Shown: positions 3,528 to 8,287 of the stretch, one piece after another
How positions within the stretch are numbered: position 1 is the stretch's first letter
Layout of the letters: each line of letters begins with the position of its first letter
Origin: Melioribacteraceae bacterium
GTDB taxonomy: Bacteria; Bacteroidota; Ignavibacteria; Ignavibacteriales; Melioribacteraceae
Assembly (NCBI GenBank): GCA_015494845.1
Contig: WGAL01000142.1
Span: 1-12,688 of the forward strand
Direction of reading: 5' to 3'
DNA: 12,688 nucleotides
Translations under genes and position numbers: made by a program
The notes under the pieces: model-generated
The model's database searches: none
What the model saw: only the letters and a program-made list of their open reading frames with translations
Told to the model about the DNA's origin: nothing

Positions 3528-3554
3528 TAAACACTTCAAAAGAACTTCCGATAA
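3528..3554 (+). promoter_or_regulatory. Sigma-28 (FliA) promoter of flagellin A
   Basis: TAAACACT (3528-3535), an 11-nt spacer and TCCGATAA (3547-3554) fit the flagellar sigma-28 consensus TAAAGTTT-N11-GCCGATAA. Spacing is exact and the -10 matches at 7 of 8 positions. Transcription would start near 3560, giving a leader of about 70 nt that holds the hairpin at 3580-3603. Confidence 0.85.
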
Positions 3555-3579
3555 TCTAAATACAAAGTAAATAATTCAT

Positions 3580-3632
3580 AAATCAAGTAGGGAGACTTGA
3601 TTTAATTAAAAACAAATTACAAGGAGGTAGTT
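3580..3632 (+). promoter_or_regulatory. Flagellin A leader: GGA-loop hairpin plus perfect SD
   Basis: AAATCAAGT (3580-3588) pairs perfectly with ACTTGATTT (3595-3603) around the loop AGGGAG (3589-3594). In this copy a tenth T-A pair (3579/3604) can form. An A-rich single-stranded stretch follows, then TTACAAGGAGGT (3617-3628), containing an 8-nt perfect SD (AAGGAGGT) 4 nt before the ATG. The loop carries GGA, and the SD region matches the CsrA consensus RUACARGGAUGU at 10 of 12 positions. Known precedent: CsrA represses flagellin (hag) translation in Bacillus through a GGA hairpin and an SD-overlapping site. CsrA binding here is inferred. A simple mRNA-stabilising 5' hairpin is the alternative. 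Confidence 0.6.
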
Positions 3633-3640
3633 ATGCCATT
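3580..3640 (+). repeat. 61-bp perfect direct repeat, copy 1 (flagellin leader)
   Basis: Positions 3580-3640 are identical to 7368-7428. The repeat spans the leader hairpin, spacer, SD and the first 8 nt of each flagellin gene. Identity ends inside codon 3, where silent differences begin. Upstream, the promoters are similar in motif but not in sequence. Confidence 0.9.
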
Positions 3641-4490
3641 TAAGGTAAACACAAACATTAACGCGCTAAAAGCGTATTACCAATTGGCAAAGGTTAATGC
3701 GCAAACTACGAAAGCCCAACTGCGTATGGCTTCCGGGAAAAGAATTCTCCAAGTAGCCGACGATACGTCCGGGTTTAACGTAGGAACTTCCCTTAAAGGG
3801 AAAGTTGCCGTAATGCAAGGCGCGCAAAATAACATTGCGGCTGCAAAAAATATGTTGAGTACGGCAGAAGGAGCTTTGCTTGGCGTTAACGATTTGTTGG
3901 TAACGATAGAAGGAAAACTTTCCGACGCAACAAATCCGACAAACGACAGAACCGCTTTGGCAAGCGATATTCAGGCTCTTGCAAAAGAAATTGACGCTAC
4001 GTTGAAAAACACGAAGTTCAACAATACTCATTTGTTGTACTCTGCCGCCGGAAGCGGATTTACTTTCCAAGTCGGCGAAGCTGGCGACACGATCAATATT
4101 GATTACGCCGATTCTATTGCGGATGGTTCCAATAACGGTTATCAAAGCGGTGTTTCAACATCGTTGTACAGCTTTATTAATGTAAGTGCAACAACCTTGA
4201 CTTCGTCCGACGGCATTGCGAACTTGCAGACTTACTTAACGAGCTTGAAATCGGCGGTAACGGACGCATTGGGAGATATCGGTAACTTTACTCAAAGACT
4301 CGATATTAAATCCGATACGTTGGACGTAGCAATAACAAACGCACAAGCAAGCATAAGCCGTTTGTTCGACGCCGATATGGCAATGGAACAATTGAAAGCA
4401 ACTCGCGGACAAATTATTGGACAAGCAGCGACGGCGATGTTGGCACAATTGAACATGGCGCCGCAACAAGTATTGCAATTATTCGGTTAA
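3633..4490 (+). CDS. Flagellin A (filament subunit, short form)
   Basis: This is the structural subunit of the flagellar filament, exported by the flagellar type III apparatus. At 285 aa it is a short flagellin, close to the D0/D1 core with only a small variable insert. Seen: the N-terminal flagellin domain (about 1-135) with ASGKRILQVADDTSGFNVGTSLKGKV around 33-58; a variable region rich in Ser, Thr and Asn (about 150-200); and the C-terminal flagellin domain (about 200-285) ending in the helix AMLAQLNMAPQQVLQLFG. It has no cysteine, as is usual. It differs from flagellin B (7421-8287) mainly in the middle; the first ~85 and last ~80 residues are almost the same. It has its own sigma-28 promoter and a very strong SD. 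A weak hairpin after the stop may let some transcripts continue into fliS. Confidence 0.96.
   Translation: MPFKVNTNINALKAYYQLAKVNAQTTKAQLRMASGKRILQVADDTSGFNVGTSLKGKVAVMQGAQNNIAAAKNMLSTAEGALLGVNDLLVTIEGKLSDATNPTNDRTALASDIQALAKEIDATLKNTKFNNTHLLYSAAGSGFTFQVGEAGDTINIDYADSIADGSNNGYQSGVSTSLYSFINVSATTLTSSDGIANLQTYLTSLKSAVTDALGDIGNFTQRLDIKSDTLDVAITNAQASISRLFDADMAMEQLKATRGQIIGQAATAMLAQLNMAPQQVLQLFG
4263..4351 (+). repeat. 89-bp perfect direct repeat, copy 1 (flagellin 3' part)
   Basis: Positions 4263-4351 are identical to 8060-8148, within the C-terminal flagellin domain, while both flanks carry silent differences. The uneven pattern of identity suggests past gene conversion between the two flagellin genes; selection on nucleotide sequence is an alternative. 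Confidence 0.85.
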
Positions 4491-4569: not shown

Positions 4570-4923
4570 ATGGTTGGTCAAGCGTACAAATATAATTCGA
4601 ATATAAAAACGGCAGGCAGAAAATCGAATCCGTATTTAACGAAAGAAATAATGGAAGCGTCTCAAGAAAAACTTTTGTTAAAAACTTACGATTTCGCGAT
4701 TGTGCATTGTAAAAAAGGCGATCACAGAAAAGCTAATCAAGCTATTGACGTTTTAATGAACGGTCTTGACCTGCAATATGAGATTGCCCGTGAACTTTAC
4801 AGTTTATATGTTTTTTGTAAAGAACAAATGGTAGAAGGCAATCATGAGATTGCCTGCGAAATTTTGACGTCGTTGAAAGAATCGTGGATAACTGCTTTCA
4901 ATAAAGAAAAGATAGCAGTGTGA
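4570..4923 (+). CDS. fliS: Flagellar export chaperone FliS
   Basis: FliS is a small helical cytoplasmic chaperone that binds the C-terminal helix of flagellin and keeps it unpolymerised until export. This 117-aa protein has the family pattern: an N-terminal Tyr/Asn segment (AYKYNSN), then EASQEKLLLKTYDFAIVHCKKGD around 28-52 in the place of the usual 'SPEKLILMLYDGAI', a middle helix, and a final helix ending TSLKESWITAFNKEK. Its position between flagellin and fliD supports the call. The ATG at 4570 is the first possible start, because TAA lies in frame just before it (4567-4569). The ribosome site is poor. No separate promoter was found, so it probably depends on read-through from flagellin A. 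The stop is 8 nt before fliD. Confidence 0.9.
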   Translation: MVGQAYKYNSNIKTAGRKSNPYLTKEIMEASQEKLLLKTYDFAIVHCKKGDHRKANQAIDVLMNGLDLQYEIARELYSLYVFCKEQMVEGNHEIACEILTSLKESWITAFNKEKIAV

Positions 4924-4931
4924 GGTAAAAA

Positions 4932-6719
4932 ATGAGTAACTCGGTTTTATCAACAAGTTGGATTGAGTCGGCGGTTGCAAGTTATACCCAGGTTCAAACA
5001 GAAAAAAGAATTCAGCCGATACAAACCAGAAAGACGCGTTATGAAAATCTTTCTACAGCTTGGAGTAATGTAAGCACAAAACTTACGTCTCTCCAAAGTA
5101 TTGTAAACTCGCTAAAAATTTCATCTTCCAGTTCAATTTTCAATTCCAGCACAGCCGAGCTTTCAACCGATGAGTTCTTTTCCGTAACGGCGTCCTCAAA
5201 CGCGACTCAAAGTTCTTATACCATGCGCGTGGAGCAACTTGCAAAAAGCGATCTAGCTGTTTCCAATACGATGGACAGTTCAACTTCAGTTACGTCAATG
5301 GCTGGTACTCACCGAATAAAAATTCAAAGCGGCGATTATGTTTCTTATGTGGATGTGGAACTGACGAGTTCCGAAACGAACGAATCCATTATGGAGGAAA
5401 TTCGCGATGCAATAAACAACGATTACGCGGTGGTGGAATCGGCAAAAATGACGCCAACGGACACATATACCGGGAGCGGGAGTTTTGTAATTAACGTTAA
5501 CGGAACCGAAACTACTATTAATTATGATTATTCTTCCGGCGGTTACACTTACGATGATGTAGTTGATGATATTATCAATAAAATTAACTCCGATGTTGAC
5601 GGTGTTACGGCAGAAAAAGAAACGGATGCTTCCGGGAATGTCGGTTTTAAAATTACAGTTGATAATAAAGACCAATATATTACCATAAATAAATCGGACG
5701 ATACCGGAACGCTGTTGGATTCGTCGCATTTTAACATTGACGTTCAAAATGAAAAATCGGCAAACGCGCTGGCAACGGCTTCCGTATTTTCTCCGCTTTC
5801 TGATAAATCAAAATTTTCAATTACGGCAAAAAATTCCGGTTATGAAAACAGATTAATAATGTCAGACGAAAGCGGTTCCGCATTAAATTTTTTGGGATTA
5901 ACTTCGACGATTTTAACAAATCACACACAAACCACAAATGATACCGACGCTGGTTTTATGTACTCGGCAAATAGTTCAACGGACAATGAATTAGATGCCG
6001 TTGTCGAATTTAACGGAATTACCGTAAGGCGCTCCTCGAATACTATTACCGATCTTGTGGATAATTTAACGTTTAGTCTCCGAGCGACAATGGAATCGTC
6101 CGATTCTGACGTAAATATTACCGTTACAAATGACGTTGATACAATAGAAGAAAAAATCGAAGATTTTGTTACAAAGTTTAATGACGTTTATACTTATATA
6201 AAAAACAATTCGTATTCCGGGGAGTCCGGACGAGGAATATTTACAGGAAACTCCACAGCGTCTTCGCTTTTAACTACTTTACGCACGCTTGTAACAAGTG
6301 AAGTTGAAGGGATTCCTGACGGAAATCTTTCTTATTTAAGCGATATTGGTATAAGTTTTGACTCTTCGAGTGGATTGAGTATTTCCGATTCATCGAAATT
6401 GGAGGATGCAATATTAAACAAAGTTGATCAGGTTGCGGATTTATTCAACTCTACAAATGGAATTGCTACGCAAATGTATGATATGATTGACGATTATATT
6501 GGCGCGGACGGAACTATTACCAACACAATCAATACAATTGACAACAATGTAAGTTATCTGAACGATAGAATTGAATCGATTAATGAAAGTATTGAAAAAA
6601 GCGCCGAGAGTTTGCGCGAGCAATATCACCGGCTCCAGGAACAATTGGCGCAATTATTATATGCTCAACAATATTTTAATTCTATGTTTAGCAGTATGAT
6701 GGGAGGAAACCTATATTAG
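4932..6719 (+). CDS. fliD: Flagellar filament cap protein FliD (HAP2)
   Basis: FliD forms the cap at the filament tip that folds arriving flagellin into place. The 595-aa protein is longer than the ~470 aa of enteric FliD, because of a bigger variable head. Seen: the FliD N-terminal domain (about 8-105) with a coiled-coil start (QTEKRIQPIQTRKTRYENL); a Ser/Thr/Asp-rich middle (about 110-350) containing a flagellin-IN-like segment near 184-245 (FVINVNGTETTINY, then DDIINKIN); and the C-terminal domain from about 354 (VVEFNGITVRRSSNTITDLV) to a long coiled coil ending RLQEQLAQLLYAQQYFNSMF. No cysteine is seen, as expected for an axial protein. GAGG 6 nt before the ATG is a fair ribosome site. 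The stop TAG at 6717-6719 overlaps the likely start of the next gene. Confidence 0.93.
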   Translation: MSNSVLSTSWIESAVASYTQVQTEKRIQPIQTRKTRYENLSTAWSNVSTKLTSLQSIVNSLKISSSSSIFNSSTAELSTDEFFSVTASSNATQSSYTMRVEQLAKSDLAVSNTMDSSTSVTSMAGTHRIKIQSGDYVSYVDVELTSSETNESIMEEIRDAINNDYAVVESAKMTPTDTYTGSGSFVINVNGTETTINYDYSSGGYTYDDVVDDIINKINSDVDGVTAEKETDASGNVGFKITVDNKDQYITINKSDDTGTLLDSSHFNIDVQNEKSANALATASVFSPLSDKSKFSITAKNSGYENRLIMSDESGSALNFLGLTSTILTNHTQTTNDTDAGFMYSANSSTDNELDAVVEFNGITVRRSSNTITDLVDNLTFSLRATMESSDSDVNITVTNDVDTIEEKIEDFVTKFNDVYTYIKNNSYSGESGRGIFTGNSTASSLLTTLRTLVTSEVEGIPDGNLSYLSDIGISFDSSSGLSISDSSKLEDAILNKVDQVADLFNSTNGIATQMYDMIDDYIGADGTITNTINTIDNNVSYLNDRIESINESIEKSAESLREQYHRLQEQLAQLLYAQQYFNSMFSSMMGGNLY

Positions 6720-7035
6720 CATTGAAAAAGTTAAACGGTTAAAGAGAGAGCTTGAAGAAATTTCCGGGTTGATTGATGAAGTAACCGACGAGAATTTCTT
6801 TAAGAAATTTGAGCGAATAACTTTTTTAACTAAGAGCGTAAATAAATTACACGAGAGCGTTTTTAGTTCTGAAAATATTAATGAAAATGAGAAAAAAGAA
6901 CTTGAAATTTTAGTTAAACAAATAAAAGAAAAATTCGATAATATGATTACGGAGAAACAAAAGCTCAGTAATGAAATAAAAAAGAAATTAAGTATATTAC
7001 AAAATCAAAAAAAAATTTCAAATTATAGTAGGTAG
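6715..7035 (+). CDS. Small helical FliT-like protein, probable AUU start
   Basis: This is a small, charged and almost entirely helical protein sitting where fliT (chaperone of FliD) is found in other flagellar operons. The length (107 aa from 6715) and the C-terminal pattern EKQKLSNEIKKKLSILQNQKK resemble the FliT/FlgN chaperone class, but no signature residue proves it. Start choice: the first TTG (6769) has no good ribosome site, and the frame stays open upstream to 6700. GGGAGG (6701-6706) lies 8 nt before an in-frame ATT (6715), which overlaps the fliD stop. Starting there gives SIEKVKRLKRELEEISGLID, which continues the same helical pattern. ATT starts are rare (infC is the known case), so the alternative is 6769-7035 (88 aa). 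The gene ends 4 nt before flgM. Confidence 0.6.
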   Translation: MSIEKVKRLKRELEEISGLIDEVTDENFFKKFERITFLTKSVNKLHESVFSSENINENEKKELEILVKQIKEKFDNMITEKQKLSNEIKKKLSILQNQKKISNYSR

Positions 7036-7039
7036 AGAC

Positions 7040-7303
7040 GTGGAAATAAAGGGAATTAACAATAATCAAGCGGCGCAATATTACAAGGCTGTAAATTCTA
7101 ACGCAAAAAAAGAGACCAATGAAATGTCAAAACCAAAGGTCTCCGACAAATTGGATATATCGGATGATGCTAAAAAGCTTTCTGGGGAAAAAGTGGACAA
7201 GGCAAAAATAAATAAAATCAAAAAGCGCGTGGAAATGGGGTTCTATAATTCCAATGCGGTTCTTACTACCGTTGCAGAACGTATTCTTAAAGAAATAGGA
7301 TAA
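7040..7303 (+). CDS. flgM: Anti-sigma-28 factor FlgM
   Basis: FlgM binds and inhibits sigma-28 (FliA) until the hook is complete, then leaves the cell through the flagellar export channel. The 87-aa protein fits the family. It has a disordered, polar N-terminal half that serves for export. The family's entry motif follows as VSDKLDISDDAKKL (34-47). The C-terminal sigma-binding helices come last (VDKAKINKIKKRVEMGFYNS and TTVAERILKEIG); the 'V..G.Y' feature is typical. It starts with GTG at 7040, 4 nt after the previous stop, with AGGTAG just upstream. It lies between two sigma-28 promoters and is likely transcribed from the first, giving negative feedback on the sigma factor that makes it. Confidence 0.85.
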   Translation: MEIKGINNNQAAQYYKAVNSNAKKETNEMSKPKVSDKLDISDDAKKLSGEKVDKAKINKIKKRVEMGFYNSNAVLTTVAERILKEIG

Positions 7304-7340
7304 AGTTTAAGTTTTTTTGAAATTTTGATTAAACTTTTTT
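7302..7340 (+). terminator. AT-rich inverted repeat and T run after flgM
   Basis: AAAGTTTAA (7302-7310) pairs perfectly with TTAAACTTT (7329-7337) across an 18-nt loop, and six Ts end at 7340. The left arm includes part of the flgM stop codon. It could be a weak terminator for the upstream operon. The right arm is also the -35 element of the flagellin B promoter, so the match may partly come from that element. A purely A/T stem with two G-C pairs is not strong. Confidence 0.4.
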
Positions 7341-7356
7341 CGGCTGGTGCCGATAA
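7330..7356 (+). promoter_or_regulatory. Sigma-28 (FliA) promoter of flagellin B
   Basis: TAAACTTT (7330-7337), an 11-nt spacer and GCCGATAA (7349-7356) match the sigma-28 consensus at 7 of 8 and 8 of 8 positions. The expected transcription start, near 7362, falls just before the leader hairpin. It is the better of the two flagellin promoters by match to consensus. Confidence 0.9.
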
Positions 7357-7367
7357 TTAAAATGTAA

Positions 7368-7420
7368 AAATCAAGTAGGGAGACTTGATTTAATTAAAAA
7401 CAAATTACAAGGAGGTAGTT
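7368..7420 (+). promoter_or_regulatory. Flagellin B leader: GGA-loop hairpin plus perfect SD
   Basis: AAATCAAGT (7368-7376), loop AGGGAG (7377-7382) and ACTTGATTT (7383-7391) form the same 9-bp hairpin as in flagellin A. The same spacer and TTACAAGGAGGT (7405-7416) follow, 4 nt before the ATG. Given the promoter position, the hairpin would sit a few nt from the 5' end of the mRNA. Confidence 0.6.
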
Positions 7421-7428
7421 ATGCCATT
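7368..7428 (+). repeat. 61-bp perfect direct repeat, copy 2 (flagellin leader)
   Basis: Identical to 3580-3640. The base just upstream differs (A at 7367, T at 3579), so the identity begins exactly at the hairpin. Confidence 0.9.
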
Positions 7429-8287
7429 CAAAGTAAACACCAACATCAATGCGCTGAAAGCGTATTACCAATTAGCAAAGGTTAACGCTCAAACCACAAA
7501 AGCCCAACTTCGTATGGCTTCAGGAAAGAGGATTCTTCAAGTAGCCGACGATACATCCGGGTTTAACGTAGGAACTTCCCTTAAAGGGAAAGTTGCCGTA
7601 ATGCAAGGTGCGCAAAATAACATTGCGGCTGCGAAAAATATGCTCAGCACAGCGGAAGGAGCTTTGCTCGGAATCAATGACCTGTTAGTAAGTATTGAAG
7701 GTAAACTTTCCGACGCAACAAACCCTACCAACGACAGAACCGCTCTGGCAAGCGATATTCAAGCACTTGCGAAGGAGATTCAAGCGACATTAAAAAACAC
7801 AAAGTTCAACAATACCGACTTGCTCTTCTCTGCTGCGGGAAGCGGATTTACTTTTCAAGTCGGTGAAGCCGGCGATACAATCAATATTGATTATGCGTCT
7901 TCATTGGCAAGCACCGGCGGCGGCGGTTATGCGAGCGGTATCTCAGCGTCTCTTGCAAGTTTTGTTAACGTTTCTGCAAGTACGCTTGAATGCACAACCG
8001 GTTCGACTTCTGTTGCTTCGTTGCAAACGGCTCTCGCAAGCTTGAAATCGGCAGTAACCGACGCATTGGGAGATATCGGTAACTTTACTCAAAGACTCGA
8101 TATTAAATCCGATACGTTGGACGTAGCAATAACAAACGCACAAGCAAGTATAAGCCGCTTGTTCGACGCAGACATGGCAATGGAACAATTGAAAGCAACA
8201 CGCAGTCAAATTATCGGACAAGCAGCAACGGCGATGTTGGCACAATTGAACATGGCGCCGCAACAAGTATTGCAATTATTCGGCTAA
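7421..8287 (+). CDS. Flagellin B (filament subunit, cysteine-containing)
   Basis: This is a second filament subunit of 288 aa, paralogous to flagellin A. The N-terminal domain is the same apart from a few conservative changes (for example GINDLLVS for GVNDLLVT, and KEIQATL for KEIDATL). The C-terminal ~80 residues are the same but for one change (TRSQ for TRGQ). The middle differs (about 150-205): a glycine run (STGGGGYASG) replaces the Asn-rich segment, and the segment STLECTTGSTS brings in a single cysteine, C191. Cysteine is unusual in flagellins. The gene is separately transcribed from a near-perfect sigma-28 promoter and ends at a strong terminator. Two flagellins may build different parts of the filament or be used under different conditions; the sequence does not say which. 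Confidence 0.96.
   Translation: MPFKVNTNINALKAYYQLAKVNAQTTKAQLRMASGKRILQVADDTSGFNVGTSLKGKVAVMQGAQNNIAAAKNMLSTAEGALLGINDLLVSIEGKLSDATNPTNDRTALASDIQALAKEIQATLKNTKFNNTDLLFSAAGSGFTFQVGEAGDTINIDYASSLASTGGGGYASGISASLASFVNVSASTLECTTGSTSVASLQTALASLKSAVTDALGDIGNFTQRLDIKSDTLDVAITNAQASISRLFDADMAMEQLKATRSQIIGQAATAMLAQLNMAPQQVLQLFG
8060..8148 (+). repeat. 89-bp perfect direct repeat, copy 2 (flagellin 3' part)
   Basis: Identical to 4263-4351. With the leader repeat, it brackets a 3.8-kb unit that homologous recombination could delete or duplicate, carrying fliS, fliD, the fliT-like gene and flgM. Confidence 0.85.

Follow-up and report, generated by a model that had tools for sequence, protein, structure and literature searches.

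The window (the whole stretch of DNA analysed here, 12,688 nt) carries two flagellin genes with the same short leader in front of each, and it raises the question of whether this leader is an operator for the translational regulator CsrA or only a by-product of the way in which the two genes arose. The window makes up contig C142; the genome to which it belongs is unfinished (1.99 Mb, 444 contigs, 77.9% complete). Its flagellin has its named relatives in Melioribacter and other metagenome-assembled genomes (MAGs) of Ignavibacteria.

Anatomy of the two flagellin leaders

The flagellar block reads, in order, flagellin 1, fliS, fliD, an ORF without assigned family, an flgM-like gene and flagellin 2. 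The features concerned are as follows.

3528..3554, + strand: sigma28-like promoter of flagellin 1, TAAA-N17-CGATAA (pattern match)
3580..3603, + strand: hairpin 1 of flagellin 1, putative CsrA site 1, loop AGGGAG (fold, covariation, model match E 4.4e-11, leader used in model)
3615..3632, + strand: second GGA on the Shine-Dalgarno sequence (SD) of flagellin 1, putative CsrA site 2, possible hairpin AATTAC-AAGGAG-GTAGTT (some folds only; inner two pairs conserved)
3633..4490, + strand: flagellin 1, 285 aa (Flagellin_N 2.7e-21, Flagellin_C 1.5e-13)
4570..4923, + strand: fliS, flagellin chaperone, context (FliS 2.6e-10)
4932..6719, + strand: fliD, filament cap, context (FliD_C 7.3e-46, FliD_N 2.2e-14)
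7040..7303, + strand: flgM-like anti-sigma28 factor, context (FlgM 1.2e-4, 22.6 bits, under the 25-bit cut-off)
7330..7356, + strand: sigma28-like promoter of flagellin 2, TAAA-N17-CGATAA (pattern match)
7368..7391, + strand: hairpin 1 of flagellin 2 (fold; model match E 1.4e-11, leader used in model)
7403..7420, + strand: second GGA on the SD of flagellin 2, possible hairpin (sequence and fold prediction)
7421..8287, + strand: flagellin 2, 288 aa (Flagellin_N 9.7e-20, Flagellin_C 2.3e-13)

The ORF between fliD and the flgM-like gene (6721-7035) showed no Pfam family above its cut-off and, judged by its position, is perhaps a fliT- or flgN-like chaperone. Elsewhere in the window, a 182-aa ORF without Pfam match at 1e-3 (1523-2071) has a starch-synthase-like gene on one side and an AMMECR1-Memo pair on the other, and an ORF running off the contig end (11323-12687) holds five repeated 32-nt units around STDGGETW-like motifs.

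The leaders were taken as 3580-3632 and 7368-7420, with presumed transcript ends. Hairpin 1, AAATCAAGT-AGGGAG-ACTTGATTT, has a 9-bp stem and is followed by the SD region TTACAAGGAGGT (3617-3628 and 7405-7416) and by the ATG starts at 3633 and 7421. The sequence-only reading had reported this hairpin with the SD behind it, and both could be read directly in each copy; likewise, each leader was found to have one GGA in the loop and one on the SD, with the hairpin site first, as that reading had it. The two GGAs lie 32 nt apart. Its count of 10 of 12 positions shared between the SD and RUACARGGAUGU was also reproduced, and this consensus string occurs in the literature. Folding of the two 75-nt leaders predicted hairpin 1 in each (z -3.59 and -2.93), and none of 200 shuffles folded as well. 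The commonest loops among relatives are AAGGAU and AAGGAA, closed by C-G; the window leaders deviate from this with AGGGAG and a closing U-A pair, and a G as final loop base was seen in 3 of 108 distinct leaders. A search of the window against 4227 Rfam families gave no match at gathering score.

The SD is able to form a 6-bp hairpin of its own with the hexaloop AAGGAG (3615-3632), which was predicted in 3 of 7 folds (1 of 4 in one fold set and 2 of 3 in the other). A competing fold, in which the 3′ part of the SD pairs with the first codons (GGUA/UGCC), wins in most of the folds that include the start codon. Across relatives, the inner C-G and A-U pairs of the SD stem are conserved and the outer pairs covary weakly.

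As regards the likeness of the two leaders, the exact identical run was confirmed as 3580-3640 (61 nt; 7368-7428 in the second copy), with mismatches at 3579 and at 3641, the third base of codon 3. It had been claimed that the untranslated part is kept more strictly than the coding part; this holds locally, as the first 80 codons show 24 silent differences and no amino-acid difference, but not over the whole genes, where the 61-nt run is the second longest and the longest, of 89 nt (4263-4351), is coding. Further identical coding runs measure 56 and 53 nt. Because the 89-nt coding run is identical too, the 61-nt identity proves little alone, and it was rejected as stand-alone evidence of function. 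The identity may be explained by duplication or gene conversion, and function is therefore argued below from comparison across genera.

Conservation and covariation of the leader in the order

When 146 genomes of the order (Ignavibacteriales) were searched for flagellin, at least 89 of them had matches. Among the matches listed, 142 flagellin starts had upstream DNA, matches without the N-terminus being left out; 4 of these starts had no GGAG near the start, 19 had no ANGGA in range, and 119 leaders were kept. The anchor was an ANGGA lying 15-60 nt upstream of the SD GGA and was chosen without using pairing. Around it, a stem of at least 4 bp was found in 96 of the 119 leaders and one of at least 5 bp in 84, whereas control anchors on other trinucleotides gave stems of at least 5 bp in only 11 of 1945 cases. 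Of the 96, 87 have their two GGAs 22-33 nt apart. A count of 110 of 142 lumps SD hairpins together with hairpin 1 and was set aside for the anchored and per-genus counts.

When one leader was taken per genus (41 genera), standard pairs at pairs 1-8 made up 100, 95, 93, 88, 85, 78, 66 and 41%, with a mean of 81%. Partners slid out of register gave means of 25-36%, and shuffled 3′ halves a mean of 57% and at most 62%; the observed pairing at the single pairs 1-8 was reached by 0 to 4 of 1000 shuffles. Pairs 1-7 are maintained through several pair types. The compensatory stem changes around a conserved loop GGA that the sequence-only reading had proposed to look for do occur in this set of one leader per genus. 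Covariation was also scored in an alignment drawn from 60 leaders (stems of 4 bp or more, spacing no greater than 36, no more than two leaders per genus, the third flagellin of the source genome on contig C235 excluded), of which 50 were aligned, the 10 dropped belonging to genera with another row. The score was 0.476 in these 50 stem-selected leaders, against 0.174 for shuffled and at most 0.113 for slid partners; the 41-genus pairing test does not rest on such selected rows. Double changes occur in 12 pairs, against a shuffle mean of 10.3; as 50 of 500 shuffles reach this number, it is unexceptional.

Since the ANGGA is constant by construction in the anchored set, the strongest hairpin with a stem of at least 5 bp was also taken regardless of its loop. 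Such a hairpin was present in 119 leaders, and GGA was found in the loop in 85 of them, against 51 of 1621 in shuffled leaders (mononucleotide shuffles only). Of these 85 loops, 35 have 6 nt and 46 have 4 nt; in the latter the strongest fold closes one extra pair and leaves no hexaloop.

Several relatives (for example G123, G024, G034 and G056) have an extra hairpin upstream of hairpin 1, GTGAGA...TCTCAT or TTGAGG...CCTCAA, without GGA, which is possibly a 5′-terminal stabiliser; no such further hairpin was seen in the window. A flagellin with an in-frame stop (G046:C315:126550-127390, L193) keeps the leader stem with the loop AATGAA, without GGA. The third flagellin of the source genome (G000:C235:555-1424, L168) starts 21 nt after a 1540-aa ORF that, from its sequence, looks like a TPR and glycosyltransferase protein; a 7-bp hairpin with the hexaloop ACGGAT lies inside the end of this ORF, 31 nt before the SD GGA.

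Both window flagellins are preceded by TAAA-N17-CGATAA, which we take to be a sigma28-type promoter motif; with 3 matches in the window against 1.22 expected, the pattern is weak alone. Across the order, a looser sigma28-like form precedes 77 of 95 full-length hairpin leaders against 14 of 40 others, and a stop-free run ending about 60 nt or less from the start was found in 13 of the 17 leaders without ANGGA that had enough flank, against 24 of 91 hairpin leaders. Because these counts differ between the leader classes, the hairpin leader seems to be associated with flagellin genes transcribed from a promoter of their own.

Occurrence of csrA and fliW and association of the leader with flagellin genes

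Both csrA and fliW, for which a search had been suggested, were found in the source genome. The csrA gene lies at C308:408-647 (PF02599, 83.5 bits, C308:408-563), immediately downstream of fliW (C308:12-404, PF02623), and the pair is followed by a response regulator with an Hpt domain, motA and motB. The encoded CsrA retains L4, R6 and R44, which are presumably its RNA contacts, and has an extended C-terminus (79 aa against 61 aa of PDB chain 1y00). According to section 5 of PMC7366521, CsrA proteins with such an extension are reported together with FliW.

Over the order, csrA and fliW occupy identical sets of genomes (94 of 146) and are adjacent in 93 of the 94. FliF or flagellin was found in 96 genomes, 93 of which have csrA; among the 50 others, 49 lack csrA and fliW; in G104, the exception, a Flagellin_N protein is encoded 2.7 kb from csrA. 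Neither csrA nor fliW is present in the assemblies of three flagellated genomes that do have leader matches (G015, G121 and G130). G015 is given as 99% complete, yet it is without FliF, and because FliF is missing as well, the absence of the regulator there is possibly an assembly gap.

A covariance model (R1) covering both hairpins was built from the 50-leader alignment, and thus from stem-selected rows, with the two window leaders in its training set. In the source genome R1 matched these two leaders (E 1.4e-11 and 4.4e-11), the next match having E 0.8, and 88 of the 146 genomes of the order had a match at E<=0.01. With the training leaders counted in, there are 109 listed matches at E<=4.3e-4, and every one stands upstream of a flagellin start. 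Coordinates showed this for 104; for the other 5, of which four lie close to a contig end and one ahead of a masked stretch, it was read from the N-terminus. Of the 20 weak matches (7.7e-4<=E<0.01), 7 stand before flagellins, 2 are copies of a flagellin leader truncated by a contig end, and 11 lie elsewhere and were taken as noise. The two-hairpin layout is thus nearly exclusive to flagellin genes, and the proposal of the sequence-only reading that the leader is flagellin-specific holds for this layout as judged by model matches. R1 found no second class of targets, and targets of another layout would escape it.

Twelve of the 94 csrA genomes had no R1 match at E<=1e-4, and 8 of these had no flagellin among the matches listed. 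As for the remaining four, the contig of G001 (L007) bears a leader cut by the contig end, G098 bears the hairpin, G111 has no such hairpin upstream of its flagellin start, and the fourth is G103. By named loci, 32 of 36 had an R1 match, including L007, from a MAG named Melioribacter roseus. In the phylum, 33 of 395 genomes had matches at E<=0.001 under stricter filters, all in the same class. Seven genomes with matches represent other families of this class, and the flagellin tally covers the order. The leader is present in more than one copy in several genomes. Contigs stop inside or just before flagellin genes in G065:C3, G085:C15, G113:C173, G011:C178 and L007, and flagellin copy numbers in these MAGs are therefore lower bounds.

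The ribosome-binding pattern GGAGGT-N2-8-ATG occurs at 31 sites in the source genome, against 18 for the reversed pattern. Among 21 distinct sites with enough flank, the flagellin form alone has ACANGGAGGT together with both hairpins; one other site has ACANGGAGGT without hairpins.

Proposed mechanism, alternatives and known systems

In our view, both leaders very probably act on their flagellin mRNAs as CsrA operators with two sites. By analogy with Campylobacter and Bacillus, the two GGAs, one in the ANGGAN loop of hairpin 1 and one 32 nt downstream on the SD, would be occupied by a CsrA dimer, which would thereby block the ribosome. FliW, encoded beside csrA, would remove CsrA once exported flagellin no longer holds FliW, and this feedback would restrict flagellin synthesis to periods in which the filament has a use for it.

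An mRNA can be stabilised by a hairpin close to its 5′ end, and the leader might serve mRNA stability or ribosome access only, independently of CsrA; the extra upstream stems of relatives, which have no GGA and are found among the 34 strongest hairpins with other loops, would suit such a role. Stability does not need a loop GGA, yet GGA sits in the loop far more often than in shuffled leaders (85/119 against 51/1621), its spacing from the SD GGA is confined to 22-33 nt in 87 of 96 leaders, and csrA and fliW track flagella, so that we regard this explanation as very improbable. That the leader identity simply records a recent duplication or gene conversion, and is uninformative on function, is in our judgement exceedingly improbable. 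The identical coding runs of 89, 56 and 53 nt speak for such an origin of the identity itself, but other genera show the layout too, with stems of different sequence, and as regards function this explanation is answered because the stem covaries across genera.

A leader that acts mainly as a CsrA sponge, freeing other CsrA targets as flagellin mRNA rises, would have a precedent in the flaA mRNA of C. jejuni, which titrates CsrA according to parts of PMC4894983, and the presence of two or more leader copies in several genomes fits it. The lack of a second target class in the R1 search, which would miss other layouts, counts against this role, and we find it quite unlikely. Within the operator reading, which we prefer, it is a tentative and rather doubtful idea that CsrA of Ignavibacteriales is a dedicated flagellin valve and not a global regulator, with csrA kept only where fliW and flagella are present and flagellin leaders as its sole targets. 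If true, it would fit flagellin homeostasis as an old role of CsrA. The order is suited to a test of CsrA as a flagellin-dedicated regulator because the distribution of csrA and fliW in it follows that of flagella.

The interpretation first offered from the sequence, a CsrA-type switch on flagellin, is thus supported, with CsrA binding expected by analogy. We conclude that the leader is a real and conserved two-site operator of CsrA type on flagellin mRNAs, on which CsrA would bind and regulate as in the described systems. CsrA-FliW control of flagellin in this lineage was not found among the open-access papers listed, as judged by titles and abstract openings, and csrA has no occurrence in the main text of PMC3534657, which reports Melioribacter roseus to be flagellate. 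The switch described in Campylobacter and Bacillus would extend into Ignavibacteria, with covariation over 41 genera.

The closest known system is the flaA leader of C. jejuni, followed by hag of Bacillus, the likeness being one of described layout in parts of the published accounts and not of aligned sequences. The flaA leader, as described in parts of PMC4894983, has two stem-loops with ANGGA hexaloops, the second over the ribosome-binding site, and CsrA binding was measured there; compensatory changes among Campylobacter species, sigma28-dependent transcription and FliW as antagonist are described as well. An upstream hexaloop hairpin of ANGGA type, a second GGA on the ribosome-binding site and stem covariation are shared with the window leaders. 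The two systems differ in GGA spacing (21 nt in flaA against 32 nt here) and in that binding was measured for flaA whereas it is predicted for the window leaders, in which the second hairpin is also less certain. The hag leader of B. subtilis similarly has two CsrA sites, one overlapping the SD, with antagonism by FliW, and the parts of PMC7652899 that describe it do not mention covariation. At the level of sequence, the window leaders match the features of CsrA-FliW flagellin leaders for which they were tested, the second hairpin being uncertain. The CsrA/RsmA operators of Gammaproteobacteria share the GGA in a hexaloop and the GGA overlapping the SD (parts of PMC7652899 and PMC4894983); their antagonists are sRNAs of CsrB type, whereas in the source genome it is fliW that is linked to csrA.
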